Assembly: GCA_002170315.2 (NCBI GenBank)
Contig: NHFA02000031.1
Coordinates: 47,650 to 85,411 of the forward strand
Direction: 5' to 3'
DNA: 37,762 nt
Source of the DNA: Euryarchaeota archaeon TMED99
GTDB lineage: Archaea; Thermoplasmatota; Poseidoniia; Poseidoniales; Poseidoniaceae
How positions within the stretch are numbered: the first letter of the stretch is position 1; each line of letters begins with the position of its first letter. Positions 11,195 to 28,104 of the stretch are shown here, piece by piece. The notes under the pieces are model-generated. The model ran no database searches, was not told the DNA's origin, and was given only the letters and a program-made list of their open reading frames with translations. A program made the position numbers and the translations under genes.

Positions 11195-14100
11195 TCACTG
11201 TTCAGGGACATAATTTGGGTCTGGAACCCAGTTATTGGACTCTGCATCCCACAACCAACCGGGATGCTGAGAGGCTTGAGGAGCATCGGTAACAACTTGT
11301 TGAACAGCAACAGGAGTTGTAGCGACTTGATTCGACGGAATCGAAACTGGTTCTTGACGTGCCTTAGCCCAAGCATAGGGGTCTTCCGAAGCCTTTTCTT
11401 CAGCGGATGTCAAATCTGCCTCTTCATCAAAGTCTTCATATTCAACTTGAAGGAAGAACATTCCTGCTCCTAAGAGTACAAGCACACCTATTGCAATGAG
11501 GGCAATCATTCCGATATTAAGTTGCGATGATTCTTCATCGCCAAGACTGACCTTGAACAAAGCATCTGAATTCTCACCGGGCTGAGTAAAGACTTGATCG
11601 TCCATTTCAAAGATAACATTTCGAGTGCCTTCGATACCTGAAAGTTGGCTGCTTGAAATCTCCATTTCCCATGTTGCGTCGGCATTCACACGTGTTTGAT
11701 TAATTCGAACTCCGCTGAGAGAATCAAAACGAGCTTCTACAAGGCTGTTCGGCAACCCTTGGCCAGTGAATACAGCCGGATTGCCTGGTCCCAACGAACC
11801 TGTGTCTTCACGGACAACCGTGAAAGAAACTTCAACAACGACTACGTTTACTTTGTATGAATATGCCACTGAACCGTAAGAGTCTCGTGCTTCAAACATT
11901 AGACCTACGAGAGACCATTCGGCAATGTCATTGGATAGACCAGTGACATAGGCAGGATCATACTTGACAACACCATTTGAACTGAAAGTAAGATAATTAC
12001 CATAATCATCATCATCGAGGTTTGTCAAATCGTCATAGACATCGAAAACAAGACCGTTGGTCACACTGGCAGTAGGCCCGTCTGGGTCTGAAAAGTGGTC
12101 GGTCAAATCAATGCTTATTCCGCCGTTACAACGGTCTTGCTTGGTTGGGTTTGAATCACAGAATAGAGTAATAGTTCCAACCCATCCAGTGGAATTGAAT
12201 TCCGGGATGAGGTTATCAGCATCACTTGGATTATCAATGGTAATTCGAATACGCTCTTCTAACGAGTAATTCTTACCATCCCATGCCTTAATCACCAACT
12301 CGTATTGCTGGTCGTGAATGAGGTCAGAGGTATCCCAAGTCGTATACCATGCGCCGTTCTGAGCAAAATTGGTAACGGGGTCTGGACCGTTGTTGATTGG
12401 AACACCGCTCGTCAAATCTACAATACTAATCTCCACACGTGTCACAAGACCGTCATTGTCTAAGGCAACACCTTGGATGAGTTGAGTCTCGCTTGCACGT
12501 AGAATATCAGTATTGAGTGGCTCGCTTAGTTGGACAAACGGAATAGCGTTATCTGTATCGATACTCAGTGTTCGAGTCTCAAAAGAACATTCCGTCCAGC
12601 CAGTCTTTGAATTACAGAAATCACTGTCTGAAGCCCAGATACGGAAGTCATATTCTCCTGTTTGCAATTCTTGGAATTGCCAATCATATGCCCATGCAGT
12701 TGAACCAGGGATGTCAAAGTTTGCAGTGTATCCGTTCGGGCCATTGATGTCAAACCAAATCGAATTGATATCGCTGCCCCATGTGCCTGAGTAAGGGTCG
12801 CTGGCAGTTCCAGTGAAGGTTACTTTACCGTTGTCATGGGAAGTTCCATCATTCGGAGTATCCACTAAAATTGAGGGTGCTACGAGATTGAGTTTGTACT
12901 TTCGAACTTCGACTGGAGAGTAGTCCAGGCCATCGTATGAGCGAACACGGAATGTGACATCCCCTTCACCCTCTGGATGAGCAGACATTTCCCAATCAAA
13001 ACTCCATGATTTGAAAGGATGGTTCGATTTTGTGATCATTCCAGCTGCGCCAGATGTGTCGATTGCTGAATACCAATCTGTCGAACCAGGTGGTTGAATT
13101 TCCACACGCTTGATGAGTCCAAACTGATTTTGGTAGGCGACATAATCAAGAGGATATGGGCCGCTAATTCCGTCCCATGAGGAGCCAGTAAGTTCAACGG
13201 TTGTCGCAAATGAGAACCCGTCATTTTGAGTCACGGTTACACTTGGTTTGAGATTGTCGAGATTGATGACATCGTCGATAGAACCGCTGAGTACGAAGTC
13301 GAAATCTTTCTGACCTTTGCCAAACATGAATGCTTCGACAGAGTAGAAAGGCAACTCACGCCCGTTGATGCAGTCGCTGTCTTCAGAATCGACCTTGGTA
13401 TCACCATCGTTATCATATCCATCAGAACATGAATCTTCATCGATGAAGACAGGATTGCCTTGAGAATCGGTTACACCAGGGATTTGAACATTGTTTTCAC
13501 CAACTAAATGGTTCCAATTTCGGTCGAGCAAGAAATCAGATGGGAGAGAGACTTCAGGTGTGAACCCAAATGCGTCTGTAGTCAAAGTGTAAAGTGGAAG
13601 TCCAGTTGCATCACGAATAATGACTGTTGCTCCAGCCACATTGCTGTTCTTTGCTTTGACTTGATAGCGAACCAATTCTCCTTCACGGACTTGACTGCCC
13701 CATGCCGAGTTCTGATTTTGAACATGAATCTTTGACGAGTCAAAATTCTGCAAGTTCGCATATGAGAATACAGTCGAGTTATCAATCACTTCAAGAGCCA
13801 ACGGCATGAATGCAGGTGGCATGACTGCGGTTGAAGGAACTTGTAAGCACTCGTCCAACACATAGGGGCATTCTGGACCGAGCCAACTTAGTTGAACAGG
13901 ATACAATTCGTTACCGCCTGCATCTGGAATGTATTCAGATTGAACGGTTACACGAGATTCTGTAATGTTGTAGATTTGGGAAGCATTCGAGTAAGAGTTA
14001 CCAGAGAAGTAAGCAATCGAACCGTATTTATTGCCATAATTATCGTCAAACAGACTGATGTTGGCAGCAAAGCCAGAGACTTCCATAGTGTTTCGTTGTG

Positions 14101-15604
14101 CATTGACGATACTGCCTTTGATACGCATACCATCTCCACCGTTATTGACCACAGTGTTATCATAAATTGTGGCAGATGACATGAACACGTGGATAGCAGG
14201 ACATGGGAAATCGCCATCATACATTTGTGAGTTACATGTTCCCGTGTTGTTGGAAATCAGGTTATTTGCCAGGTACAAACGAGCTGCGGTCGGTGTAGGA
14301 ACATTCCATCCCTGGTCGTTGAAGTGGTATTCTCCAATGAGGACAGCCTCCTTTGCTGTATCTTGAATGGTGTTGTTTTCAGCACTCACATCAGAGGTGC
14401 CGTAAATCCACAACCCATTCCAACCACCGATTGGTCCAATGATGTTATTATTAGCAATAACTGATGAAGACCGAATACCAAATCCTGAGCCTTCTGCTGC
14501 ACCTGAAATGGTGTTTCGGTTTGCCTCAACGATTGCGCCATCATAAGCAGTGATTCCTGAACCATCAGCAGTCGTGATATCGTTATCATTCAAAATCAGT
14601 GTGTGATTAATCGTTCCAGTGACTTTGTGAGAATTTGTGTCAATTCCGCTGCACTTGACGTTAATTGTTGAATTTGTAAGCGAGCCTGAACTCTGTTTCA
14701 AGAACAAACCATAGGCGTTTTCATCAAGGTCGAGGTTTGAAAGATCAACATACGACTCTTCGATGTAAATGAGGCTACGGCCACCACCTTGTTGACCGCA
14801 ATCTGCTTCGGTGTTACCGGTGAAATCGGAGTTCTGAATGCGCATGGTTCCAAGAATTCCAGCACCAGCACCATAGGCGCGAACTGCAGCAGCATCGTAT
14901 CCATTGCCATCGATACCGAGCGTGAATGTTGAATCATCAATGGTTGGTGATGCAAGGTCCAGAGCGATGATGTTGGAAGTGTTAATGTCTTGGAAACTGA
15001 GTCCAGTTGCTGTTGTCGAAGAACCGTCAAAAACCAATACACCGTATTGCTTACCGCTCACCTGGTTTGTATCGAAGGGAATACCATATGCATTTTCAAA
15101 GTGGGCGTATTTGATTGATGTGATCGCTTGGTCTATCGTGGAGCGAATAATCATTCCAGAACCACATGCTGTATCACCGTTGTAATTCGGATTGTTGCTG
15201 TTATTCGAATAACAGCGGCCTTGAAGGGTGTAATCAGAAGGAGTTGACCAAATGAAGCGTGCTTGATTACTTGCTGAACCTGAACTTGAACCACATGAAG
15301 TGTCACCGATACAAATAGCACCCTCGACATCAATGTAGTATCCATAAGGGATGTTTACAGTCGTGCCCGCATTGACAATGAGTTTCGCTCCTTCTGCAAC
15401 GGTAACGTCTCCGTTAAGATTCATGGTTCCTGACCAGGTTTCAGTTCCGGAAATAATTCCAGACTTCGTTTCGTTCACAGCAGATGCGGCTGGTAGAGTT
15501 ACCAGCCCGGTTAATACTGAGAGCAATAAAAGTGCGACTAACGATATGCTTTTGTGCGATGTTGTGTTCTTCAAAATAGACACCTCTCCCTTCTCCCATC
15601 TCAC
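11195..15604 (-). CDS. C-terminally TM-anchored surface protein: signal peptide, right-handed parallel beta-helix region, MopE-like DxD metal-binding motif, Ig/cadherin-like domains
   Basis: Signal SLVALLLLSVLTGLVTLPAASA. Repetitive N/D/S-rich NosD/PbH1-like repeats (NTIQDTAKEAVLIGEY, NNLISNNTGTCNSQ). CSDGYDNDGDTKVDSEDSDC. TM IGMIALIAIGVLVLLGAGMFFL and an acidic cytoplasmic tail. Exact start uncertain (GTG/TTG). Confidence 0.82.
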   Translation of the reverse strand: MRWEKGEVSILKNTTSHKSISLVALLLLSVLTGLVTLPAASAVNETKSGIISGTETWSGTMNLNGDVTVAEGAKLIVNAGTTVNIPYGYYIDVEGAICIGDTSCGSSSGSASNQARFIWSTPSDYTLQGRCYSNNSNNPNYNGDTACGSGMIIRSTIDQAITSIKYAHFENAYGIPFDTNQVSGKQYGVLVFDGSSTTATGLSFQDINTSNIIALDLASPTIDDSTFTLGIDGNGYDAAAVRAYGAGAGILGTMRIQNSDFTGNTEADCGQQGGGRSLIYIEESYVDLSNLDLDENAYGLFLKQSSGSLTNSTINVKCSGIDTNSHKVTGTINHTLILNDNDITTADGSGITAYDGAIVEANRNTISGAAEGSGFGIRSSSVIANNNIIGPIGGWNGLWIYGTSDVSAENNTIQDTAKEAVLIGEYHFNDQGWNVPTPTAARLYLANNLISNNTGTCNSQMYDGDFPCPAIHVFMSSATIYDNTVVNNGGDGMRIKGSIVNAQRNTMEVSGFAANISLFDDNYGNKYGSIAYFSGNSYSNASQIYNITESRVTVQSEYIPDAGGNELYPVQLSWLGPECPYVLDECLQVPSTAVMPPAFMPLALEVIDNSTVFSYANLQNFDSSKIHVQNQNSAWGSQVREGELVRYQVKAKNSNVAGATVIIRDATGLPLYTLTTDAFGFTPEVSLPSDFLLDRNWNHLVGENNVQIPGVTDSQGNPVFIDEDSCSDGYDNDGDTKVDSEDSDCINGRELPFYSVEAFMFGKGQKDFDFVLSGSIDDVINLDNLKPSVTVTQNDGFSFATTVELTGSSWDGISGPYPLDYVAYQNQFGLIKRVEIQPPGSTDWYSAIDTSGAAGMITKSNHPFKSWSFDWEMSAHPEGEGDVTFRVRSYDGLDYSPVEVRKYKLNLVAPSILVDTPNDGTSHDNGKVTFTGTASDPYSGTWGSDINSIWFDINGPNGYTANFDIPGSTAWAYDWQFQELQTGEYDFRIWASDSDFCNSKTGWTECSFETRTLSIDTDNAIPFVQLSEPLNTDILRASETQLIQGVALDNDGLVTRVEISIVDLTSGVPINNGPDPVTNFAQNGAWYTTWDTSDLIHDQQYELVIKAWDGKNYSLEERIRITIDNPSDADNLIPEFNSTGWVGTITLFCDSNPTKQDRCNGGISIDLTDHFSDPDGPTASVTNGLVFDVYDDLTNLDDDDYGNYLTFSSNGVVKYDPAYVTGLSNDIAEWSLVGLMFEARDSYGSVAYSYKVNVVVVEVSFTVVREDTGSLGPGNPAVFTGQGLPNSLVEARFDSLSGVRINQTRVNADATWEMEISSSQLSGIEGTRNVIFEMDDQVFTQPGENSDALFKVSLGDEESSQLNIGMIALIAIGVLVLLGAGMFFLQVEYEDFDEEADLTSAEEKASEDPYAWAKARQEPVSIPSNQVATTPVAVQQVVTDAPQASQHPGWLWDAESNNWVPDPNYVPEQ

Positions 15605-15639
15605 CCTCGAATATAATACTGCGCCTCAATTGCCCGTTT

Positions 15640-15710
15640 AAGAATATCAAAAAGGGAAAAGAATATCACAAATATCGGCCTATTTGTATCATATTACTAC
15701 AAGAGTATCA
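15640..15710. promoter_or_regulatory. Three copies of AAGARTATCA in the upstream region of the 11195..15604 gene
   Basis: AAGAATATCA at 15640-15649 and 15659-15668, AAGAGTATCA at 15701-15710. Intergenic and AT-rich. Confidence 0.4.
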
Positions 15711-15785
15711 GTTATTCGGCCTTCATTAAAACCCAAACGAGGGCGAAGTGCAACCTTTACAGTGCCTTTTTGGCAAATGGATGGC

Positions 15786-17006
15786 TCAACAAGTCCACGG
15801 TTGTAAGGCCAAGTCTTGATACCAATCAAAGGCTTGAAGTTGTCCGTAGCCCCACCGGTTATCATGCTCGACAGAGGGTTGATATTTGAGTGAAGTCTCT
15901 TTCAGTGATGTCTTGACATGATCAATACAGTCACCGTTTGAATCGGCTGTTGGCTTAAACTGCGGGTAGGCTTCGAGAATTAAGGAGAGAGCACCAGTGA
16001 CAAATACAGTAGAATCAGAAGTACCACTGCTGGAATACCACAGGTCTCCCGCACCTGTGCTGATTATGTTTTCACCAGGGGCAATAACTTCTGGTTTGAG
16101 ATGAGGACTTTGTCGAGAAGTTCCATCAGAAAGCGTTTGAGAGCCTGAGGAGGAGTTCGCCCATACAGTCTGTTCCTGAGTCGAGGCTCCGACGGTAATG
16201 ACGCGAGGCACATTACCTGGAACTGAGACTAAACCATCATCACCAATTCCACCATCATTACCTGCAGCAGCAACGACAAAAATCCCTGAATCAACCGCAC
16301 GTCGAACTGCAGAAACACTCGAACCCTCAGTCTGCATCTGAACTTGTTGCTCACCACCCAGAGAAAGAGAGATGATATCAGCATTGAACTCGTCTTGACA
16401 CCACAAGATTGCACTGGCCACTGTATCCTCAGAACCACTGTTCATATTTTCGTCATCAGCTCCAAGGGCGGCTACAACAGCAAGGGTAATGTTTGGCGCA
16501 ATACCCATTTGATGTTCACCTGAAACAAGGATACCTGCCATCAAAGTTCCATGAGCAACATAGCCATAGTCGAGTGGTGAATTTGAATTGCCAATCATGT
16601 CCTTGAATGTGACTTCAAGACCAGTAAAAGCGGGATGACTCAAATCAATCCCAGTGTCAACCATGCAAACCTTGACTCCCTCGCCACTTAACCCGGTTTC
16701 CGAAAACTCATCAAATTGTGATTGTTCCATGGCCCATTCAGACTTCGGTGGCGAGAGTTCAATAAACAAAAGTCCGGAATTCCAGACGACAAGTAGAACG
16801 ATTACAAGAATGGCAAAGAAGATACCATTCGTTGCGAGGAATCTCTTACGACGCATGCGTGGAACGGGTGTTGGCTGATACGGCGCCCAACCAGTCACTT
16901 CAGCTCTCCAACCGTCCTGGAATCCCACTGCTGAAGGGTCAATTGCAGAGAGGATTCGAGAATCTTCTGGCTCAGGAAGTAATTCAAAGTTATCTAAATC
17001 ACTCAC
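15786..17006 (-). CDS. Membrane-anchored S8 (subtilisin-like) serine peptidase
   Basis: Asp motif VCMVDTGIDLSHP, His motif AHGTLMAGIL, oxyanion AAAGNDGG, Ser motif SSSGTSDSTVF. Single N-terminal TM (GIFFAILVIVLLVVWNSGLLFI). Likely GTG start at 17006 with RBS GAGGTGA. Confidence 0.88.
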   Translation of the reverse strand: MSDLDNFELLPEPEDSRILSAIDPSAVGFQDGWRAEVTGWAPYQPTPVPRMRRKRFLATNGIFFAILVIVLLVVWNSGLLFIELSPPKSEWAMEQSQFDEFSETGLSGEGVKVCMVDTGIDLSHPAFTGLEVTFKDMIGNSNSPLDYGYVAHGTLMAGILVSGEHQMGIAPNITLAVVAALGADDENMNSGSEDTVASAILWCQDEFNADIISLSLGGEQQVQMQTEGSSVSAVRRAVDSGIFVVAAAGNDGGIGDDGLVSVPGNVPRVITVGASTQEQTVWANSSSGSQTLSDGTSRQSPHLKPEVIAPGENIISTGAGDLWYSSSGTSDSTVFVTGALSLILEAYPQFKPTADSNGDCIDHVKTSLKETSLKYQPSVEHDNRWGYGQLQAFDWYQDLALQPWTC

Positions 17007-17082
17007 TTTTTCACCTCTACAGCACCACAGCAGCAAAGATACTTGCGCATCTTTGGCTATAATGTGTTGTCTGTTTCTTGAA

Positions 17083-20000
17083 TCAGAATCGACTGGATGA
17101 TGAACGGCTTCGAGCTAAGCGAACACCGCCGTAAACAACCAAGGCGCCAATGACGAAGATGACGAGAGTGAACCATGGAGATTCCTCGGTCGTTTCATCA
17201 ATGTAATATTCGAAACTGAAATCTATCGTCTTGTCTTCACCAATTTCCTGAGATACTTTACCGCTGTCCTCTCCGAGAACTTCAACAGTTACTTCAAATC
17301 GAACTGTACCGCTTGAATCTTCAGGAGATACTGTGAAGTTCGCATTCGTTGTAGATTCGGCATCGAGCGAAATCGTAACGGTTCCAAGTGACTTACCATC
17401 AACAATCTTCGCTGAAACTTCAACATTGCCAGTCGCCATCAGACCAAGGTTCGTGACTGGAATGACAAGTTGGTTTTCAGTATCTGCTGTCGATTCAGAA
17501 AGGGTTCGAATCGCACCTTGATCGATATCAAGCCGTAGACTTAGTGGGATAATATCAACGTCAAAGGTATCTGAAAGTTGTCCGTTTGAACTGGTTACTG
17601 TAACGGTAACGGTCTTGGTTCCTTCAGTGAAATTTGTCGCAGAAAATACAGTGAACATTTGAGAACGAGTAACATCCTTCGTGATGGTTATGACTGATTG
17701 CATTGGGGTAATTTCCCAATCTTCAGGGATGTTGTCTGCAAGTTCAATTGTAAAGGAATCATCACCGTTACCCAAATTGGTCAAATCGAAGCCGAATGTC
17801 TGGCTTCCTGCGTCAAGTCCTACAACTGTTGGAACATTTGAGAATTCAAAGTCATAGATTTGCGGAACTTGAACAGTTACCGCAATCTCGCTTGAAGGCG
17901 TTGCGTCAGAACTCAATCGGACCTTGAGCGAGTGAGGCTCTTCAAGATGCCACGCATCAGATTGGTTCGGTGCGAGGATACGGACACGAAGCACTGTTGA
18001 TGAATCAACGGTGGTGTCATTGGAATCTTCTCCAATTCCGAGCGTAACATTGTGAGATTCAACAAAGTTTGTACCATCCCAGAACTCAATGCTCCAGTCT
18101 GCTTCATCTGGTGCGATTCCAATTTGTCCGACGACATCAAACACTTGAGAAGTTTCAGTGCCGTCATATTGGATGTTCAAGTCGAACTCAATTGCTTTGT
18201 AGGCTTCTTCTTCTTCAATTGCCTCAAAGGCAAGTTCGGATTCTGCATCAACTGTAGCATTCACGAGACTGTTTTCAACCATTGTGATTGAAGTGTCTGA
18301 ATTGGCTATTCGGTTGTAGGAAAGAGCAACTGGTGAACGTCCTTCTGCAACGAGTGTAACTGCACCACCAATGTATTCCATCTCTAAGTTAAGGTCATGT
18401 TGAATGGTGACAAAGGATGAATCCATTTCAATTTCTTCAGCAGGCATCAAAATACTGATGGTTCCGTCGTTCCCAACAGGCATATCCCATTCAATGTCAG
18501 AACCGATTCCAAAGGTTACAGAAACGGACTCATTCAAGAGTGCAGAGCCTTCGATATCGTCAGCACCTGCGTGATGGTCAGCCAAGTCGATGGAGGTCCA
18601 CGAGGTGGTTAAATCAATCCAGCCACCGAGTGACATTTCAAGATCGAGCGTTGCACCATCGGAAATACTTGCATCGAGTAATCCAACTGCGACACCGCCA
18701 CCGTTTTCACCAGCATCAGCTTGTGTTACGACAACAATCCACTCACCTGGCGCAATTACTGCAGACCATGTCAATGTATCATTTGCGAAGACTGGAGTTA
18801 TGTTGAGAACATCTCCTGCCATTCCGCTGGATGGATAGAGAACAACCGTTGAACCGTTCAATCGACTCGCATCGTTAATATCCGTTACGTTACCAGAAAC
18901 GACGACGTTTCCTGCAGTCATTTCAATGTCGTGAGACTCAGGATCAGAATGAACTGGGTACGCACTTGAGTTCGAGATATTGTAGACCTCTGTGCTGAAA
19001 CCTTCCTTACTTACAGTAACTTGGTATTCATCGTCAATTGGGACAAACAAAGACCAAACACCGAACTCGTTGGTCGTTACATTGGTATCAATTTCAGAAT
19101 TATTCATTCCAACAATCTCAACTGTAGTATTCGCAACACCTTCGGTTCCGCCAGGAATGTCATTATCGTCAAGATCCCAGAAGACCTTTCCACCAATCTC
19201 TACTTCCAAATCTGCGGTCATTAATCCGAGATCAAGAACGCCTTCAACAGCTGTGTTGGTGTTGAATGGCCCGTATTCAAGAGTCCAATGTCGCTGCGGT
19301 GATGTCTCGTTAAGGAAGAGACTCCAGTTACCTGGCATTATCTCCTCTGACACGTTACCGCTTTCATCAGATTTCGAAAGCGTCACATTGCCAAAGCCAT
19401 CATGGCTAACCAATGTAACACGAACGCCGGACATGTTTGTCTCAGTGCCTGTTTCTTGAAGTTGGAAGTTCATTTCTACAACATCAAAGGTAGCCAACGT
19501 CAAATTGTTTCGAACGGATGAATCTGCTCCAACTGTGAATGAATAACGAAGTGTTTCGGTACTCTCGTTATCGGCTATGAAAGGAGCGACAATAGCGACC
19601 CAATCTCCAGCAGGAACATAAGAGGCAAAACTGCCATTCTCATCTGAAGCCATGTTAAACCACAGGTCATCAGCGTCATTTCGTAGTAAGAATTGCTTCT
19701 CAACTGCTCCACCACTGTTGTTTGTGAGTTCACCTGTAACCAAGTACTCATTGCGCAGTGGGAATGCAACCGCTTCCTCATATGCTTCAAGTCCAACAAT
19801 GACCGGATCAAACACATTTGCTCCGATAAGTGCGTAATCAGAGGCATTACCGTCTTCTGGATTGGTAGAATTGAGTTGAAGTGTATAGAGTCCTGGTTCT
19901 AAGACAACTGTAATATTTCCTGGAGATGTATAATCCGAAGATGTGTAATTGTGTTGCTGTCCATGGTCATTAAGTGGCACGAGTGAGAATGACGGGCTTA

Positions 20001-23000
20001 CTGCCGTTCCATTGGCAAAGACGCCATCTGCACCTGCATCCATGAAGAGATTCAGTTCTATGGTGATGAATTCAGGATTGACAAACAATTCAACCGGCAT
20101 TGGTGCGGCATCTGGCTCACTGATGATGTTGTAATTGAGAACCTCTGAAGAATTCAGTGCTTCCACATCAACGGTGAAATCCCAAGCGCCATATTGCAAG
20201 TTAAAGATGAACTCGCCGGTATCTGTGATCTGTGTTCTCCATTCCAGTCCGTCACTATCGGTGGCAACAACTTCCTGAGCACTATCATAGCCAGGAGCAA
20301 GACCGTCCCACAGGGATGCATTGTCATAAAGGAATACGAATCCAGTGACACCGGTTGTTGGTTTGAGATACATGAGGCCAAGATCTATTTCAGCATCACC
20401 TGTGAGTTCAATCAATTGACCTCCGGACATCTGAGAAGCGATACTGAATGTGGTCATGTGGAAATCATTTCCACTTGGCAAACGGATACTGTAGTTCCCA
20501 TCTGTTTCAACGACCGTCGAGAAGGACAAATCATCCGAGATAAAGAGAACATTCAGACCAGAAGCTGGTTGACTTTGGTCAAGTTTGATATTTTCGTCTT
20601 CTTCAGCCCAAACTGAGTAGTTCAAATCACTGTTAAACAAGCCACCATCGACAACACGGATACTTCCGTTGACCCATGTTCCAATTGCATATTCACTTGA
20701 AATTGACAAGTCTTCTGACTCGAGAGAAACATGGTCGAACAAAATGTAGTCATTTCCAGTTTCATCAGAAATTGTGTATGAACCCATAGGCAATTCGATG
20801 TAAACAAGACCGTTTTCATCCGATGTTGCATTCAGTGGACCAAAGAGAGGGTCGTCATTCGTGAAAGTCACAACTCTTCCCGCAACATCGGTGTAAGCCT
20901 CTTGAGTTTGAGGATCAACAGGAGAACTGAGTTGCAATGAAACGTCATGCATTTCTGGAACATCCATCAGCAAGGTAAAGTTCTCTGATGAATCTCGAAC
21001 AGTGAATGTTTCATTCAATTCATACCAGCCATCTCCATCTACGTCGACGCGGTAATAGTATTCTCCAGCAGCAAGTGGGCCTTCAGAAAAGTTTCCAAAT
21101 TCATCAGTAGTAATTTCAGTTACTGCTGAAAGTCCCAAATCAATATCAACAAGTTCGAACGTTTCGTTGGCGTATGCAACGTCATAGAAGTCTTGAAGAG
21201 TATCTTCGAAGATTGAACCAGGCATTGACATTTGCAAATCATATGAGGGTGAAATTTCCACAGTCACGGGGTCTGGAAGGAGAACTTCCTTGCCGTTATC
21301 CAACTGAGCAATCATGTTGTAAACACCAGGAATTAATCCCGTAATGTAGAATGAACCGGGTTGGACCATTGGACCAGAGAAATCACCAGGGCCGACAAAG
21401 AGACCGGTACCGTTGAGAGTTCCTGTTCCTTCAAACGAACCTGTCGCTTCAAAGGAGTCGCCAATGTGTTCGGTGACCAAGGTGGAAATGCCATCAGAAG
21501 TGATTCTTCCATTCGCTTCAACTTGTCCATCCAAAAGATAGATTTGAGGCGAAGCAGATGCGTCTTGGAGACAAAGAGACTCGTTTTCTGGCATTGGAGC
21601 AGTTTCATTATCAAGACAAGAGACCACATTTTCAGTCGCTATCCACGATGCAGCAAGAGTACCCTTACCGTTCCAAGTTCCGTTACTTGTGTAGACACGG
21701 CCGTCCGCAATTGAACGAGTGAATGTTCCCGTGAAATCATCAGCAAAGGCTACACCTTCGCTTTCAAAGGTTCCATTTTCAGTAAAGGTGACTTGACCGG
21801 TACCCTGGAGGATACGACTGTCTTCAGAAGAGAATGAACCATTGGTTGTCGTCAATGTGTAATTCTCGGTCATCGACCAAATGTTACGTAGAACGAAATC
21901 TGTGCTGACCAACGCATCACCATCAAAAGATTCGTGACCTGTCCATGTTACTTGGCCTGAAACACCACTGCTTTCAACAGCGATATCAAACGAAGTAGGA
22001 ACATCCACAAACCGGTCTGCTTGTTGAGCAGTGATGTTGTGCTGGTATTCACCGAGCCAACTCATGTTGGCAACTTCACCGAGAATTGCGGTGATGTCGT
22101 TGATTTGTCGGTCGTCATTCGTTACAGTCAAGATATCGCCAAGGTTTTGGGAAAAGGCACCGGTACGGATGTTGTCTTGGGCAGTCGTTGGGTTGTAGTC
22201 TCCCGCAAATGCGCTCACACGGATACGTCCAGCTGGAGCATCAAAGGACCATTTTCCATCGTCATCAGCATCTGTGAAACCGATTGGAACCCAGTAGGTG
22301 TCAGGATCAAGGTCTTCTGTGCCTTCACCAGAGAAAGCGTCACGCTCAATCAGCAGACGGACACCCGGCAAACCTTGGCCGTTGTCACTCATCGTAACTT
22401 GGCCTGAAATTTCAGCACCGGAGTAATATTTGAGGATTTTAACAAGAGTATTGGTTGAAGCGATGCCTGAGGATTGTTGTTCAGCAGTTACAGAACTGTT
22501 CTCTTCAGGAGTATACCAATTTGCAATAACAAAGTGATTCTGCATTGCGCCAGGCAATGGCAGTGCTTGACTCAAGATACTACCTGGACTTCCTGATTGT
22601 CCGAAGTGCTGTGCTGGTTGCGGATTCGATGACCCTGCATCAATACCCAGTGAAGAAGCACCGTATCCTACATAGGTACGAGCGAGCATGGTGTCGAAGA
22701 ACGCAGCATTGTGGTCAACACGTACGTCTTGAACCTGCAACGGGTCAATATCTGCACCAGATTGTTGATTGAGGAAATCTTCCGTAATTGCTTGGTCGAC
22801 TTCTTCACGAGTCATCTCATCAGGGAATTCTCCACGCATTGTTTCGTAGACCTCATCCATGTAAGTGGAAACGTCTTGGCCACTCAGAATAGTTGGCGCA
22901 CCAAAAATACCCATTGGCTGTCCTTGGTTGTAATTCATATCTTCAGTGTAACGTCCAGCACGAGGATACAATCGGTTGTCGATTGCAAAATACCGGATTT

Positions 23001-26000
23001 CGTGATCACGATCGACGGTTTCACCAGGAGCGCCATCGTAATCTTGGACTGAGTAATAGCCTTCGAGGTTAATCAAATCATCATACATGTCGATGATTTG
23101 GTGACTTTCAAGAGAGAGAGAAAGCAATTGAACGGTCAGTGAAAGACGGGTGTTCTTACGGTGAATATTGGTTGCAACAGAATCGTATTCTTCGACGAGG
23201 TCTGCAGTGTACCAATAATCCCCAACAATGTAATGTGTGGTATCATAGATATTATCTGCTCCAGTACGAATATTGTTCGTGAAGGTTCGGTTTGCTTCGA
23301 ACAGTTCTGACCAGTCACCGTCAACACATGTCAAGGACAGTGCGTCGGTACAGAGAATGCGTTCTCCGTCTTCATAGACACGCCAATAAGGTGTTGATTG
23401 GTCAAATACTCCATCGGTTTGGTGGTAACCTTGTGCTAAAACGACATCATCGTTCGTTTGGAAGACTCTGAAACTGTTGAGTTCTGCCAATTCGATCATT
23501 TCGTCGTGGTCAACATTTGTCGACATAGTCGTAAAGAGTTCCATTTGTGCATCACTGAGGTAAGAATCAACGATGTTACTGTATCCTGAAGTGAAAGCAG
23601 TATTACCTGTTCGGGCTTGGTTGTATTCAATGTCACCTTGGCCAAGTTGCCAGATGAACATCGAAACTAAATCTTCTTGACTTCGTGCGAGTAACATGTT
23701 CCCTGTAGCTGGAATTCCAGACTGGAAGTTATCGGATACAGAGGGGTGTTCACCAGTATCCAGCGCTTGGAAACCGTAGTCCCACCAAGAGACGAATGCT
23801 GGACGTTCTGAATAGGCCATATCCGTATCTTGGGATGCAAGCCACTGATACGCAGTATTCCAACCGTTATCGTTGAACCCAGAGCCAAAGGAACCGAGAT
23901 ACCAGTTTCCGTCGTAAGTGCTGTCATCCAGCAAAGAGAAACCGCCAACTTCCCATCGGAATGCGTCAGGGATAATGTTGTAAATCGTTTCATCAATGTC
24001 ATCTTCAGCGTTGTTGCTACCAGGGATAGCGGCATCAAGACCGTATGTGAATTGTTGTCCAAACAGCATAATCATGACGAGCATGATAGCAGAGAATGAC
24101 GGTGTGCGCCATACGGCAACACGTGCGCCACGAATCCGGTCTTCAGGTGAGCGAATACCGAGTTTCTTCCACGTTTTGACAAGTCCGCCCCAATTCGCCC
24201 ACTTCCAAAGTGAGACAATACCCCATGCACCGAGAACGGCAATGGCTGGCGTAGCGTTAAACATGAATCGAGCAGCGGTCCAAGCCATGAATGAGGCTGC
24301 GAGAATCCAGATACCGAAGACGAGATTTGTCTGTTTGCGCTCACGAAGAGCAGACCACATGCAAAGAACACCCATAATGAGGGAAAGAACAAAAGTAATT
24401 GGTCCGAACTGAGCGAAAAGTTGTCCACGATTAGGCGCATTTGCTTCAGCAACAGTTCCGAAAATCTTTGTCTTGGTGAAGTAGCCACTGCCTGTGAACA
24501 GAACATCCCAAGCATTGGATAGATTAGCTTGCTTGAGAAGCCACAATGCCAAGAAGAACACAGCACCAGCAGTTGCGAGGACACCCAAAATGAGCAACCA
24601 AGGCTTGTCTCGGAACCCAGTTGTTACGAAACTGATAGCCAGGGTGAACACAAAGATGAACAAGAACGGTTGAAGTCCAGTTCCATCAAGAACCAGATCG
24701 ATTTGTGGGTGACCGTAGAACGGCAATGCCATCAAGAAATTGACAGAAAGCATAGTCAAGAACAGAACATTCAGCGTTGTAGAATCGCGGCGTCGGAACA
24801 TGTTAATTGAAACTTGAGCAGCATAAGCCAGGAACAAAATCGAAGGACCAACAACGAAACCTTTCCAACCGAGAGAAACAATACCGAAACTCACACCAGC
24901 TAAAACTGCAGATGCAAAAGCTGCCTTTCGATGTGTCAAAACTGCCGAAATGGCTGAGATAAATGCTCCAGGTGTTGCTGATGAGGAACGGAGGAGTCGC
25001 TCAGTACCTGCATACTTGACTGCACGTAACCAGAACATGAAACCGAGCGTAATGAACAGCATGATGAATGCGTCGTGGTCGGCAAGTGCCCATGTTGTGT
25101 GGCTCACGTGAGCCGGCATGAAGGCAATGAGCCAAGCAGCAATAACTGCTGCTTTGTCGTTTATGTGTTCACGTGCAATTGCTGCAACTGGGAAAATTGT
25201 AAGTGCACCGTAAATTGCAGGAAGTGCCAAAATAGCCCACCAAACTGCGTCTCCGTTGTCAAAGAACGGTTCCAGAAGCATTGCTAAGACTGCAATTGAC
25301 CAAGTGAAAATCGGAGGTCGAGGATTGATTCCACCGACGGGGTAGAAACGGTCTGCATCAAAAATCATGTGTGCATTATTGGCGAGGATGTAATCGACAA
25401 CTCGCTTCATGTACCACGGGTCAGAACCGCCAGTCATGTCCCAGTTTCCTGTTCCATATGCATTCATCGAGGGGACGAGATACCATTGTGTTCGAATGAC
25501 TAAACCAAAGAAGAAAGCCAGGCCAATCATAACGCTGGCCCAGTGTTGATTCCAAAACAATCGAGCTCCAGAATATTCGTGGTCTTCACGGTTTACCCAA
25601 CCGCCCCATCGATCGTGCGTGGAAATCGAGTAAATTCCAACGCCGATAAAGAAGGTAGCGCCAAGCCAAATGAGGCTGCCCCAACTGTTATCCAACATTG
25701 CAAGTTGGAACATTTCTGCATCATACCATGTCGAAACTTGATACAACATCCACATTGACGAAAGTGTCATGGCACGAGTGTGCCAGCGTTCGGCAAACAT
25801 TCCGGCTACGATAAGCGCAACCATTCCTGTGAAGAACGCAGACCAATAACTGAAGTAGCCGTGGTAACCTTCAACGGTGTTGATTCCCAATTGGTCGGCT
25901 ACAGAAACGCTGTCGTAGTGCCAAAGGCTAGCAATGTGAGCGAATGCCCAAACTGCGAGAGCAACTTGCAATGGTAAGTTCTTTTTGTTGATGAATGATG

Positions 26001-26652
26001 ATGTATCATCGTTCATGAAACTGAACCAACCTTGTTCGCTAGCAGGCGTCAATTGTCCACGAGCAAAGGTAGCAACAAGAGCACCGAGCAGAATAAACAC
26101 AGTCAGATATGAAAAGAACTGATAACCAACTGCTTGATTTTTCAGATTCAAAGTCGAGACATAACTCGGTTGTTCGTCAACACCTGCCATGTTGTAAATC
26201 TCTGGGAGAATCGCAAGAGCATCTCCTGCCATGATGATTCCTACATTGATTCCAACAGCCGTGAAGATGAAAATCGAAGACATTTCGTATCGTCCTCGGC
26301 TGGTCATGAAATGAACGCCAAAGGTGACGAGTGCGAACAGAAGACCTGTAAATGCACCGTAGCCTTGGAGATAGATAATTTCTGCACCAACAAGAGCAAC
26401 GGCCAGTGTTGAGAGGGAGAGAGTGGCCTTTGAGAATGATGCAGATTCAGATTGGTTGAGCATCGATGGAAGAAGTCCAAAGATGCTTGCGGCGATGACG
26501 AAAATCATCGGCGTCATGTTGTCTACGTTGAGCTCGAAGTCTACTCCGACGAGCTTGATGGCTGCGATAGCGAGCAGGACTGCTAGGGGGGCAATGAGCC
26601 ATCCCAACGGTGCTGCTGGCGCAGTGCTTTGTGTGCCAGTTTTTTGTTCCAT
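17083..26652 (-). CDS. aglB: Giant AglB/Stt3-type oligosaccharyltransferase fused to an N-terminal multipass region and a very long C-terminal ectodomain with C-terminal TM
   Basis: 3189 aa. Acidic motif GGSDPWYMKR (about residue 409), second acidic motif WALADHDAF (about 519), catalytic WWDYG (residues 956-960), multiple TM helices. Residues after about 1410 are soluble beta-rich domains; terminal TM PWFTLVIFVIGALVVYGGVRLARSR. Confidence 0.88.
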   Translation of the reverse strand: MEQKTGTQSTAPAAPLGWLIAPLAVLLAIAAIKLVGVDFELNVDNMTPMIFVIAASIFGLLPSMLNQSESASFSKATLSLSTLAVALVGAEIIYLQGYGAFTGLLFALVTFGVHFMTSRGRYEMSSIFIFTAVGINVGIIMAGDALAILPEIYNMAGVDEQPSYVSTLNLKNQAVGYQFFSYLTVFILLGALVATFARGQLTPASEQGWFSFMNDDTSSFINKKNLPLQVALAVWAFAHIASLWHYDSVSVADQLGINTVEGYHGYFSYWSAFFTGMVALIVAGMFAERWHTRAMTLSSMWMLYQVSTWYDAEMFQLAMLDNSWGSLIWLGATFFIGVGIYSISTHDRWGGWVNREDHEYSGARLFWNQHWASVMIGLAFFFGLVIRTQWYLVPSMNAYGTGNWDMTGGSDPWYMKRVVDYILANNAHMIFDADRFYPVGGINPRPPIFTWSIAVLAMLLEPFFDNGDAVWWAILALPAIYGALTIFPVAAIAREHINDKAAVIAAWLIAFMPAHVSHTTWALADHDAFIMLFITLGFMFWLRAVKYAGTERLLRSSSATPGAFISAISAVLTHRKAAFASAVLAGVSFGIVSLGWKGFVVGPSILFLAYAAQVSINMFRRRDSTTLNVLFLTMLSVNFLMALPFYGHPQIDLVLDGTGLQPFLFIFVFTLAISFVTTGFRDKPWLLILGVLATAGAVFFLALWLLKQANLSNAWDVLFTGSGYFTKTKIFGTVAEANAPNRGQLFAQFGPITFVLSLIMGVLCMWSALRERKQTNLVFGIWILAASFMAWTAARFMFNATPAIAVLGAWGIVSLWKWANWGGLVKTWKKLGIRSPEDRIRGARVAVWRTPSFSAIMLVMIMLFGQQFTYGLDAAIPGSNNAEDDIDETIYNIIPDAFRWEVGGFSLLDDSTYDGNWYLGSFGSGFNDNGWNTAYQWLASQDTDMAYSERPAFVSWWDYGFQALDTGEHPSVSDNFQSGIPATGNMLLARSQEDLVSMFIWQLGQGDIEYNQARTGNTAFTSGYSNIVDSYLSDAQMELFTTMSTNVDHDEMIELAELNSFRVFQTNDDVVLAQGYHQTDGVFDQSTPYWRVYEDGERILCTDALSLTCVDGDWSELFEANRTFTNNIRTGADNIYDTTHYIVGDYWYTADLVEEYDSVATNIHRKNTRLSLTVQLLSLSLESHQIIDMYDDLINLEGYYSVQDYDGAPGETVDRDHEIRYFAIDNRLYPRAGRYTEDMNYNQGQPMGIFGAPTILSGQDVSTYMDEVYETMRGEFPDEMTREEVDQAITEDFLNQQSGADIDPLQVQDVRVDHNAAFFDTMLARTYVGYGASSLGIDAGSSNPQPAQHFGQSGSPGSILSQALPLPGAMQNHFVIANWYTPEENSSVTAEQQSSGIASTNTLVKILKYYSGAEISGQVTMSDNGQGLPGVRLLIERDAFSGEGTEDLDPDTYWVPIGFTDADDDGKWSFDAPAGRIRVSAFAGDYNPTTAQDNIRTGAFSQNLGDILTVTNDDRQINDITAILGEVANMSWLGEYQHNITAQQADRFVDVPTSFDIAVESSGVSGQVTWTGHESFDGDALVSTDFVLRNIWSMTENYTLTTTNGSFSSEDSRILQGTGQVTFTENGTFESEGVAFADDFTGTFTRSIADGRVYTSNGTWNGKGTLAASWIATENVVSCLDNETAPMPENESLCLQDASASPQIYLLDGQVEANGRITSDGISTLVTEHIGDSFEATGSFEGTGTLNGTGLFVGPGDFSGPMVQPGSFYITGLIPGVYNMIAQLDNGKEVLLPDPVTVEISPSYDLQMSMPGSIFEDTLQDFYDVAYANETFELVDIDLGLSAVTEITTDEFGNFSEGPLAAGEYYYRVDVDGDGWYELNETFTVRDSSENFTLLMDVPEMHDVSLQLSSPVDPQTQEAYTDVAGRVVTFTNDDPLFGPLNATSDENGLVYIELPMGSYTISDETGNDYILFDHVSLESEDLSISSEYAIGTWVNGSIRVVDGGLFNSDLNYSVWAEEDENIKLDQSQPASGLNVLFISDDLSFSTVVETDGNYSIRLPSGNDFHMTTFSIASQMSGGQLIELTGDAEIDLGLMYLKPTTGVTGFVFLYDNASLWDGLAPGYDSAQEVVATDSDGLEWRTQITDTGEFIFNLQYGAWDFTVDVEALNSSEVLNYNIISEPDAAPMPVELFVNPEFITIELNLFMDAGADGVFANGTAVSPSFSLVPLNDHGQQHNYTSSDYTSPGNITVVLEPGLYTLQLNSTNPEDGNASDYALIGANVFDPVIVGLEAYEEAVAFPLRNEYLVTGELTNNSGGAVEKQFLLRNDADDLWFNMASDENGSFASYVPAGDWVAIVAPFIADNESTETLRYSFTVGADSSVRNNLTLATFDVVEMNFQLQETGTETNMSGVRVTLVSHDGFGNVTLSKSDESGNVSEEIMPGNWSLFLNETSPQRHWTLEYGPFNTNTAVEGVLDLGLMTADLEVEIGGKVFWDLDDNDIPGGTEGVANTTVEIVGMNNSEIDTNVTTNEFGVWSLFVPIDDEYQVTVSKEGFSTEVYNISNSSAYPVHSDPESHDIEMTAGNVVVSGNVTDINDASRLNGSTVVLYPSSGMAGDVLNITPVFANDTLTWSAVIAPGEWIVVVTQADAGENGGGVAVGLLDASISDGATLDLEMSLGGWIDLTTSWTSIDLADHHAGADDIEGSALLNESVSVTFGIGSDIEWDMPVGNDGTISILMPAEEIEMDSSFVTIQHDLNLEMEYIGGAVTLVAEGRSPVALSYNRIANSDTSITMVENSLVNATVDAESELAFEAIEEEEAYKAIEFDLNIQYDGTETSQVFDVVGQIGIAPDEADWSIEFWDGTNFVESHNVTLGIGEDSNDTTVDSSTVLRVRILAPNQSDAWHLEEPHSLKVRLSSDATPSSEIAVTVQVPQIYDFEFSNVPTVVGLDAGSQTFGFDLTNLGNGDDSFTIELADNIPEDWEITPMQSVITITKDVTRSQMFTVFSATNFTEGTKTVTVTVTSSNGQLSDTFDVDIIPLSLRLDIDQGAIRTLSESTADTENQLVIPVTNLGLMATGNVEVSAKIVDGKSLGTVTISLDAESTTNANFTVSPEDSSGTVRFEVTVEVLGEDSGKVSQEIGEDKTIDFSFEYYIDETTEESPWFTLVIFVIGALVVYGGVRLARSRSSSSRF

Positions 26653-26785
26653 TTTTTTTCCCTCAAAGGTGTTTGCGCGACAGCATCAAGGCTGAGGCGT
26701 CTTCGCCACTTGAGAGGCTCTTTTAATGACTCCGCTAAAAGAACAACAGATGAAAGCAACGCTGTGTTGCATTTCACTGGCGTTT

Positions 26786-26822
26786 TTTAACCCCTCTTTT
26801 TAGGGTATTTTGAGGGGTTAAA
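26786..26822. terminator. 11-bp perfect hairpin TTTAACCCCTC / GAGGGGTTAAA downstream of purD
   Basis: Arms 26786-26796 and 26812-26822, 15-nt loop. Lies between the purD stop (26830) and the OST upstream region. Confidence 0.45.
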
Positions 26823-26829
26823 TCATCGA

Positions 26830-28104
26830 CTAAAGTGCGCGATATGCAATGTCATTTCGATAATGTGAGCCTTCTAATTGAACCGTTTCAATGAGTTCAT
26901 AAGCCAACTTCACAGATGCTTCTAGAGTCGGTGCGAGCGCACTGCACGAGAGCACTCGACCACCGGTAGAAACCAGTCGGCCTTGGTCATCAAAACCCGT
27001 ACCTGCGTGACTCACCCAAGCAGTCGCCTCGCCAGATTGAAGAGGAGTATCTTTCACTCCATGAATCAATCGACCTTTGATTGGAGATTGTGGGTAACCT
27101 TCTGCAGCAAGAACTACGGTTGTGGCGAATAAATCGTGAAATTCTACATCTAATTCTGCCAAACGGTCAGAGGCTGCGGCCTCGAGAACTTCAAAGATGT
27201 CAGTTTTCACTAGAGGCAAGGTGATTTGACATTCTGGGTCTCCAAATCGGACATTAAACTCGACGACATTTGGCTCTCCCGATTCTGGAATCATGAGCCC
27301 GACATAGAGTACTCCTCGATAGGGAGTTTCGCCAGAAAGTAAGTAACGATGCATTGGTTCAATAATGGTTTGAATAGTTGTTTGACGGATTGCTTCGGTG
27401 ACAACTGGAGCAGGACAATAGGCACCCATTCCCCCAGTATTTGGCCCTTCATCACCGTCATAAGCGCGCTTGTGATCTTGACTTGCAGGAAGACAAACGT
27501 AGCCTGAACCATCCATGATGACCAGCATACTGGCTTCTTCACCTGGTAAAAAGTCCTCAAGCAAAACCTGCCCATCACTCTCGATGGAACTCTGAATGAA
27601 GGCAAGAGCCTCTTCCCGATTTTCGGTTACCACCACGCCCTTACCTCCTGCCAAAACATCTCGCTTGACAACCCAAGGATTGCCTGAAAAGTCATCTAAC
27701 GCAGCATTAACATCACTGGTGCTTGAGAGAACATGAAACGCAGCGGTCGGGACATTTGCTGCTCGCATGACTTGTTTCGCATGAAGCTTGGAACCTTCGA
27801 GATTGGCGAGTTCGGCGACGGGGCCAAAACACGGGATTCCAATGGTAGATAACCGGTCTGCAAGTGATGCGCACAACGGTGCTTCAGGTCCAGCAACAAC
27901 CAAATCAGCATCAATCCTTTGTGCAAGACTCAGCAGTCCCTCGATGTCCGTCGCAGAGATTGAATGATTTGTTGCTAACCGGGAGGTTCCTGCGTTTCCT
28001 GGTGAACAATGGAGTTCTGAAACATGTGGAGAATGCTTCAACTCCATACAAAGAGCGTGTTCACGTCCACCTCCACCTACGACGAGTACCACCTTCCCTG
28101 CCAT
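26830..28104 (-). CDS. purD: Phosphoribosylamine-glycine ligase
   Basis: VLVVGGGGREHAL, GPEAPLCASLADRL, VVKRDVLAGGKGVVV, QDHKRAYDGDEGPNTGGMGAYCPAP, VVEFNVRFGDPECQ: diagnostic GARS motifs. Confidence 0.97.
   Translation of the reverse strand: MAGKVVLVVGGGGREHALCMELKHSPHVSELHCSPGNAGTSRLATNHSISATDIEGLLSLAQRIDADLVVAGPEAPLCASLADRLSTIGIPCFGPVAELANLEGSKLHAKQVMRAANVPTAAFHVLSSTSDVNAALDDFSGNPWVVKRDVLAGGKGVVVTENREEALAFIQSSIESDGQVLLEDFLPGEEASMLVIMDGSGYVCLPASQDHKRAYDGDEGPNTGGMGAYCPAPVVTEAIRQTTIQTIIEPMHRYLLSGETPYRGVLYVGLMIPESGEPNVVEFNVRFGDPECQITLPLVKTDIFEVLEAAASDRLAELDVEFHDLFATTVVLAAEGYPQSPIKGRLIHGVKDTPLQSGEATAWVSHAGTGFDDQGRLVSTGGRVLSCSALAPTLEASVKLAYELIETVQLEGSHYRNDIAYRAL

Follow-up and report, generated by a model that had tools for sequence, protein, structure and literature searches.

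A giant AglB-type oligosaccharyltransferase with a fused, membrane-anchored ectodomain in Poseidoniales and its extended relatives in Thermoplasmatota

Structural work on archaeal oligosaccharyltransferases (OSTs) rests on compact AglB enzymes of ~900 amino acids (aa). Here, we describe a far longer member of this family encoded in a 37,762-nucleotide stretch of the Poseidoniaceae genome Euryarchaeota archaeon TMED99 (assembly GCA_002170315.2, contig NHFA02000031.1, positions 47,650 to 85,411), henceforth termed the window. An open reading frame (ORF) that begins with ATG and encodes 3,189 aa without an internal stop occupies window positions 17083-26652 on the minus strand, on which all features given below with coordinates are located, and is identified by Pfam as a giant AglB/STT3 OST (PF02516 STT3, E=1.8e-14, 54.6 bits against a cut-off of 24.5). 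No other STT3-family gene was found in the 1.8-Mb, 85% complete host genome. Judged from sequence, the gene represents a real, conserved and new architectural form of AglB; no description of an extended AglB from Poseidoniales or other Thermoplasmatota was found in the open-access literature. An initial annotation of this DNA had recognized the uninterrupted frame with its GSDPWY, WALADHD and WWDYG motifs, all of which are located as described below, and had proposed that enzyme, ectodomain and a second membrane anchor form one polypeptide. Its coordinates (17190-22422) covered the C-terminal extension and left out the catalytic core as well as an N-terminal domain of ~360 aa, which had escaped notice.

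Domain plan of the window protein

The STT3 GT-C transmembrane (TM) core spans residues ~361-874 (24031-25572), as assigned from PF02516, Foldseek and a profile match to Archaeoglobus fulgidus AglB (3waj, E=2.5e-34) that places the catalytic motifs in register. It contains the first catalytic Asp, in external loop 1 (EL1), within GSDPWY (residues 409-414; 25411-25428), the second acidic motif WALADHD (residues 521-527; 25072-25092), and TVAEA (residues 733-737; 24442-24456), an EL5 motif of the TIxE/SVSE type that carries the catalytic Glu and aligns with TIAE of A. fulgidus AglB. The core is followed by the C-terminal globular domain of the enzyme (residues ~875-1405; 22438-24030), recognized by its conservation profile and depleted in sequons, with the sequon-binding motif WWDYG at residues 956-960 (23773-23787). 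GSDPWY and the DHD of the second motif are invariant in alignment A2, WWDYG is invariant in the phylum set, and all four elements (Asp, DxD/DHD, Glu and WWDYG) are invariant or nearly so in alignments A1 and A2. An AlphaFold2 (AF2) model of residues 1-900, with a mean predicted local distance difference test (pLDDT) score of only 59, returned AglB (7e9s, 3wak), human STT3A and yeast STT3 as Foldseek matches. By these features, the window protein is an STT3/AglB-type OST with intact catalytic motifs, and it would be expected to act on N-X-S/T.

Known archaeal OST structures are compact, with A. fulgidus AglB consisting of a TM region (6-498) and a globular domain (499-868) (PMC8342417, PMC3703281). 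A. fulgidus AglB-L (3WAJ/5GMY/7E9S) shares the STT3 GT-C core, the D, DH and TIxE-type Glu elements and WWDYG with the window protein, but is devoid of the N-terminal polytopic domain, the TTR/Cna-B array and the C-terminal TM helix. The model for archaeosortase-A-associated STT3 (TIGR04154) scores 162 bits against a curated cut-off of 450, and the peripheral domain AglB_L1 (PF18079), present in the AglB L068, has no match in the window protein. Downstream of WWDYG (23620-23690), Thermoplasmatota proteins have a common [DE]....[FL]I.[RQ]L..[GD] pattern.

Ahead of the core lies a polytopic domain (residues 1-360; 25573-26652) of ~10 predicted helices, ten in the AF2 model. This domain was detected in 15 of the 16 Poseidoniales genomes searched, among them the host, but in no member of a set of 71 other Thermoplasmatota. 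It gave no informative Pfam match and, from the same modest model, no assignable Foldseek match. Two possible origins, an internal duplication of the STT3 core and homology to the N-terminal parts of families f20, f13 and f26, were rejected as neither gave an hhalign signal. Families f20 and f13 (L055, L056) have their own ~285 residues ahead of the first catalytic motif, and these show no detectable similarity to the Poseidoniales domain.

The extension begins around KYYSGA (residues 1408-1413; 22414-22431), a motif found phylum-wide as K[YF]Y.GA, at a junction that the initial annotation had correctly placed near residue 1410 (22422). From here, a sequon-rich ectodomain (residues 1406-3155; 17188-22437) continues as tandem beta-sandwich modules, as indicated by Pfam, AF2, Foldseek and sequon counts; its length at ~95 residues per module gives an estimate, rather than a count, of ~17-18 modules. 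A CarboxypepD_reg module at residues 2504-2559 (18976-19143) exceeds the cut-off of PF13620 (family E=3.5e-11). Of the NEW3/CARDB-like part that had been proposed, the CARDB domain at residues 3051-3124 (17281-17502) holds above the cut-off of PF07705 (E=7.4e-6), while the NEW3/choice-of-anchor-T-like stretch at residues 2920-3027 (17572-17895) falls below the curated cut-off of NF041740 (E=2.6e-5).

An AF2 model of residues 1400-2590, built from an input of 22 species, consists almost wholly of beta structure; its mean pLDDT is 76.5, with values of about 75-94 beyond residue 1810. Foldseek matched it to Cna-B/SdrD B repeats, pilins, TIE and other adhesins. The PF13620 match, the model and the Foldseek results together identify tandem TTR/Cna-B-like beta-sandwiches, in agreement with the carboxypeptidase-regulatory-like modules first read from the sequence. 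The description of the extension as S-layer-like found no such backing, since no S-layer family is among the Pfam and NCBIfam matches of the window protein and its modules belong to the Cna-B/CarboxypepD_reg/CARDB type, which many surface proteins share. Gram-positive Cna-B/SdrD B-repeat surface proteins and pilins resemble the ectodomain in module fold, but have no such enzyme attached, and sequence searches of the PDB with the extension gave no significant match.

The chain ends in a TM anchor (residues 3161-3179; 17116-17172, hydropathy-type prediction) and a basic 10-residue tail ending in RF, as the initial annotation had claimed for the anchor. A C-terminal hydrophobic anchor with a short tail is present in all 21 complete Poseidoniales proteins examined. 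The extreme C terminus (17086-17091) is [RK]F in Poseidoniaceae, with 52 of 52 frames ending in F, mostly PF in the sister family, and basic in most other Thermoplasmatota. The giant size of AglB in this order (~3,190 aa) is explained by the fused module chain and the predicted second membrane anchor.

Integrity and spread of the fusion

The STT3 gene was found in 185 of 194 Poseidoniales genomes, and its unusual length held up across the genera sampled from the order, in which the open frames listed are mostly 3,120-3,330 aa long. An assembly or annotation artefact that joins two genes might be suspected from the broken frames in some assemblies. Among 80 named public loci, the frame is closed at either end and at least 3,100 aa long in 50, and is cut off by a contig end in 24; three loci contain N, and three have an internal break. 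In the broken loci examined, the DNA continues in another frame or beyond a stop, and the breaks lie at differing residues (e.g., ~190-330, 1040-1070, 1550, 1720-1770 and 2001), a scatter that speaks against a consistent split at the junction of core and extension. Moreover, the identical architecture recurs in dozens of independent assemblies, including an intact frame in L119 (isolate AH-287-P07), a record without a metagenome-assembled genome label that, from its name, we take to be a single-cell genome. We see virtually no chance of an artefact and count it as already refuted. The proposal that enzyme, ectodomain and anchor form a single polypeptide has thereby withstood both the assembly join and the consistent split that could have undone it. 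No stand-alone copy or paralogue of the ectodomain was found in the host genome.

The gene had at first been framed as a peculiarity of Poseidoniales, which proved too narrow: by sequence comparison, the extended TM-anchored architecture is widespread in Thermoplasmatota, occurring in most families, with the full ~3,190-aa form being that of Poseidoniales. AglB is ~2,320-2,370 aa long in Marine Group III (MGIII), the sister order. Elsewhere in the phylum, its length is ~1,860-2,740 aa in many families, 1,120-1,430 aa in several, and 916-930 aa in two, one of which (f15) shows an AglB_L1 domain. Extended proteins such as those of MGIII (L052), f24 (L053) and f30 (L054) are like the window protein in core, junction motif and a TM-anchored tail of CarboxypepD_reg/SdrD_B modules, but are shorter, do not have the Poseidoniales-type N-terminal domain, and contain modules much closer to the Pfam consensus. 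The giants outside Poseidoniales carry 4-7 CarboxypepD_reg stretches, SdrD_B in most cases and NEW3 or CARDB in some, and have a hydrophobic anchor at the C-terminal end. In nearly all extended forms, including those of 1,181 and 1,427 aa, K[YF]Y.GA and a CarboxypepD_reg-like module mark the boundary. A 29-taxon core tree, rooted on two short sequences and weak at its deeper nodes, nests the 1,181- and 1,427-aa forms among giants (support 86/93), a placement that points to a long ancestral form having been shortened. Should OSTs two to four times the size of the compact enzymes, with a covalently linked, doubly anchored and probably glycosylated ectodomain, indeed be in use in a phylum to which some of the commonest ocean archaea belong, the known range of OST architectures needs revising. 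The AglB proteins of f7 and f25 (L061, L064) have PGF-CTERM-like C-terminal tails, a hint at archaeosortase processing of an OST; the TIGR04126 match in L064 scores 17.6 bits, short of the cut-off of 24.5.

This distribution could reflect neutral or adhesive accretion, in which AglB, early in the history of Thermoplasmatota, acquired the tail of an ordinary membrane-bound surface protein that plays no part in glycosylation. Accretion would fit the generic surface-protein character of the modules, the variation of length and module content by family, and the nesting of short forms among long ones. It is at odds with the near-constant length within the order, the absence of a consistent split among the loci examined, the phylum-wide conservation of the junction, and strong purifying selection. 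Comparison with the nearest relative L072 gives ratios of non-synonymous to synonymous substitution rates (dN/dS) of 0.01 for the core and 0.03-0.07 for the ectodomain, values that are rough because dS is near 1, and the whole ectodomain is under purifying selection. We consider accretion decidedly unlikely.

Conservation and sequon content of the ectodomain

In pairwise comparisons among 22 Poseidoniales species, mean identity reaches 55% for the core, 50% for the C-terminal domain of the enzyme and 30% for the N-terminal domain; within the ectodomain, it amounts to 39-56% over residues 1400-1800 and ~22-35% over the remainder. As residues 1406-1500 are conserved to the same degree as the catalytic core, and residues 1406-1800 (21253-22437) above the rest of the ectodomain, this part probably works together with the enzyme. 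A glycine-rich beta repeat stretch (GTGxFEGTGTxNGTGLFxGxGxFSGPM; residues ~1560-1800, 21223-21975) is highly conserved, contains two invariant Cys and has low AF2 confidence.

The adjacency of the best-conserved part to the sequon-binding domain is compatible with a substrate-handling adaptor, the modules of which would recognize secreted proteins in the unfolded state, or attach to the translocon, and supply the active site with sequons, as separate non-catalytic subunits do for eukaryotic OST. That the extension is still fused across many families points in the same direction. A possible analogy is NOMO, which as part of the BOS complex of the endoplasmic reticulum translocon places tandem TTR-like beta-sandwiches beside the translocon/OST machinery; unlike the window protein, it is not fused to an OST. 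The likeness, however, comes from Pfam matches of the modules in which NOMO models score far below the generic CarboxypepD_reg one (in the window protein, NOMO1-like_9th has 16 bits against a cut-off of 27), and the PDB searches with the extension returned neither a eukaryotic OST subunit nor NOMO. A relationship to NOMO was rejected, as nothing beyond generic module similarity was seen. We regard the adaptor explanation as unlikely.

Sequons (N-X-S/T, with X not P) were counted and compared with the expectation from shuffled composition. The ectodomain of the window protein contains 49 sequons where 18.7 are expected (2.62x), and summed over the 22 species its three successive parts reach 2.2, 2.9 and 2.0 times the expectation, with pooled z scores of 15-27 that are overstated because the species are related. 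Across the order, the catalytic C-terminal domain stays at a ratio of 0.40 and the N-terminal domain at 1.0; a reversed-motif control in the ectodomain yields 0.9-1.4, cytoplasmic neighbours 0.3-0.7, and the extensions of other Thermoplasmatota 1.2-4.0. The adjoining beta-helix protein has 15 sequons against 19 expected. A control set of 18 surface-like proteins of the host genome, taken from 14 regions selected by CARDB, CarboxypepD_reg and S8 matches, gave a pooled ratio of 1.38. Few of the surface polypeptides examined are as rich in sequons as the ectodomain, though it is not unique in this respect. Its enrichment lends indirect support to the earlier suggestion of a built-in acceptor, with glycosylation itself being predicted from the sequons.

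Gene neighbourhood and a proposed role

The AglB gene is followed after 46 bp by a gene for a membrane-anchored S8 subtilase (15786-17036; PF00082) and then by one for a 1,469-aa right-handed beta-helix/Big_7 surface protein with a TM helix and a cytoplasmic tail (11195-15604), both recognized from Pfam and synteny. The order PurD, AglB, S8 subtilase and beta-helix/Big_7 protein on one strand (11195-28104) recurs in both Poseidoniales families, at almost every locus with sufficient flanking sequence, and was not seen at MGIII or other Thermoplasmatota loci. This conserved synteny suggests a surface-protein maturation cluster. CarS adjoins PurD in opposite orientation between the two families.

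The presence of the membrane-anchored subtilase immediately downstream throughout the order raises the alternative that the extension is a passenger, which would be cleaved off after synthesis, possibly by this neighbour, to yield a normal-sized OST and a TM-anchored surface protein. However, MGIII and other Thermoplasmatota have the fusion without a subtilase neighbour, the junction is strongly conserved in sequence instead of resembling a variable linker, and the host genome contains 11 S8 matches. Such processing seems to us quite improbable.

We favour a reading in which the ectodomain is a glycosylated extracellular arch that keeps the enzyme and the surface coat together, and give it, taken as a whole, about an even chance of being right. 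The ectodomain, ~1,750 residues long, would leave the sequon-binding domain of the enzyme and return to the membrane via the final TM helix; with both of its ends held in the membrane, it would rise outside the cell as a loop or arch over and alongside the active site. It may receive N-glycans from the enzyme to which it is fused or from an adjacent copy, would, in line with the tethering first suggested, keep the enzyme within the cell-surface glycoprotein coat and make it part of that coat, and probably holds or guides secreted acceptor proteins near the catalytic site. A bolder version, that the enzyme is its own major substrate and a structural surface glycoprotein, uniting coat-making and coat membership in one polypeptide, is a tentative idea that we doubt. 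Several Thermoplasmatota lineages have been reported to be without an S-layer. The protein offers a single-chain system for asking how an OST couples to surface assembly and substrate delivery, for which eukaryotes need a multi-subunit complex.

Several observations weigh against the arch. Its topology derives from hydropathy, and the AF2 model spans residues 1400-2590 with weak inter-domain confidence (predicted template modelling score 0.42). Visual inspection of the conservation profile downstream of WWDYG revealed no recognizable DK/MI motif of the Ser/Thr pocket. In the host genome, two further surface proteins reach sequon ratios of 2.2-2.5, so the sequon level fits an ordinary surface glycoprotein, and an enrichment unique to the AglB protein was rejected on the same ground. 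The low identity beyond residue 1800 across the order is as compatible with a spacer or coat as with a substrate guide; if glycosylated, a spacer or coat would suit this faster-evolving remainder.

In a metatranscriptome of Marine Group II, an OST, possibly the present one, was among the differentially transcribed genes (PMC9723583). The host genome also encodes a second giant surface protein of ~2,989 aa (L235, G000:C49), with a sequon ratio of 2.16.

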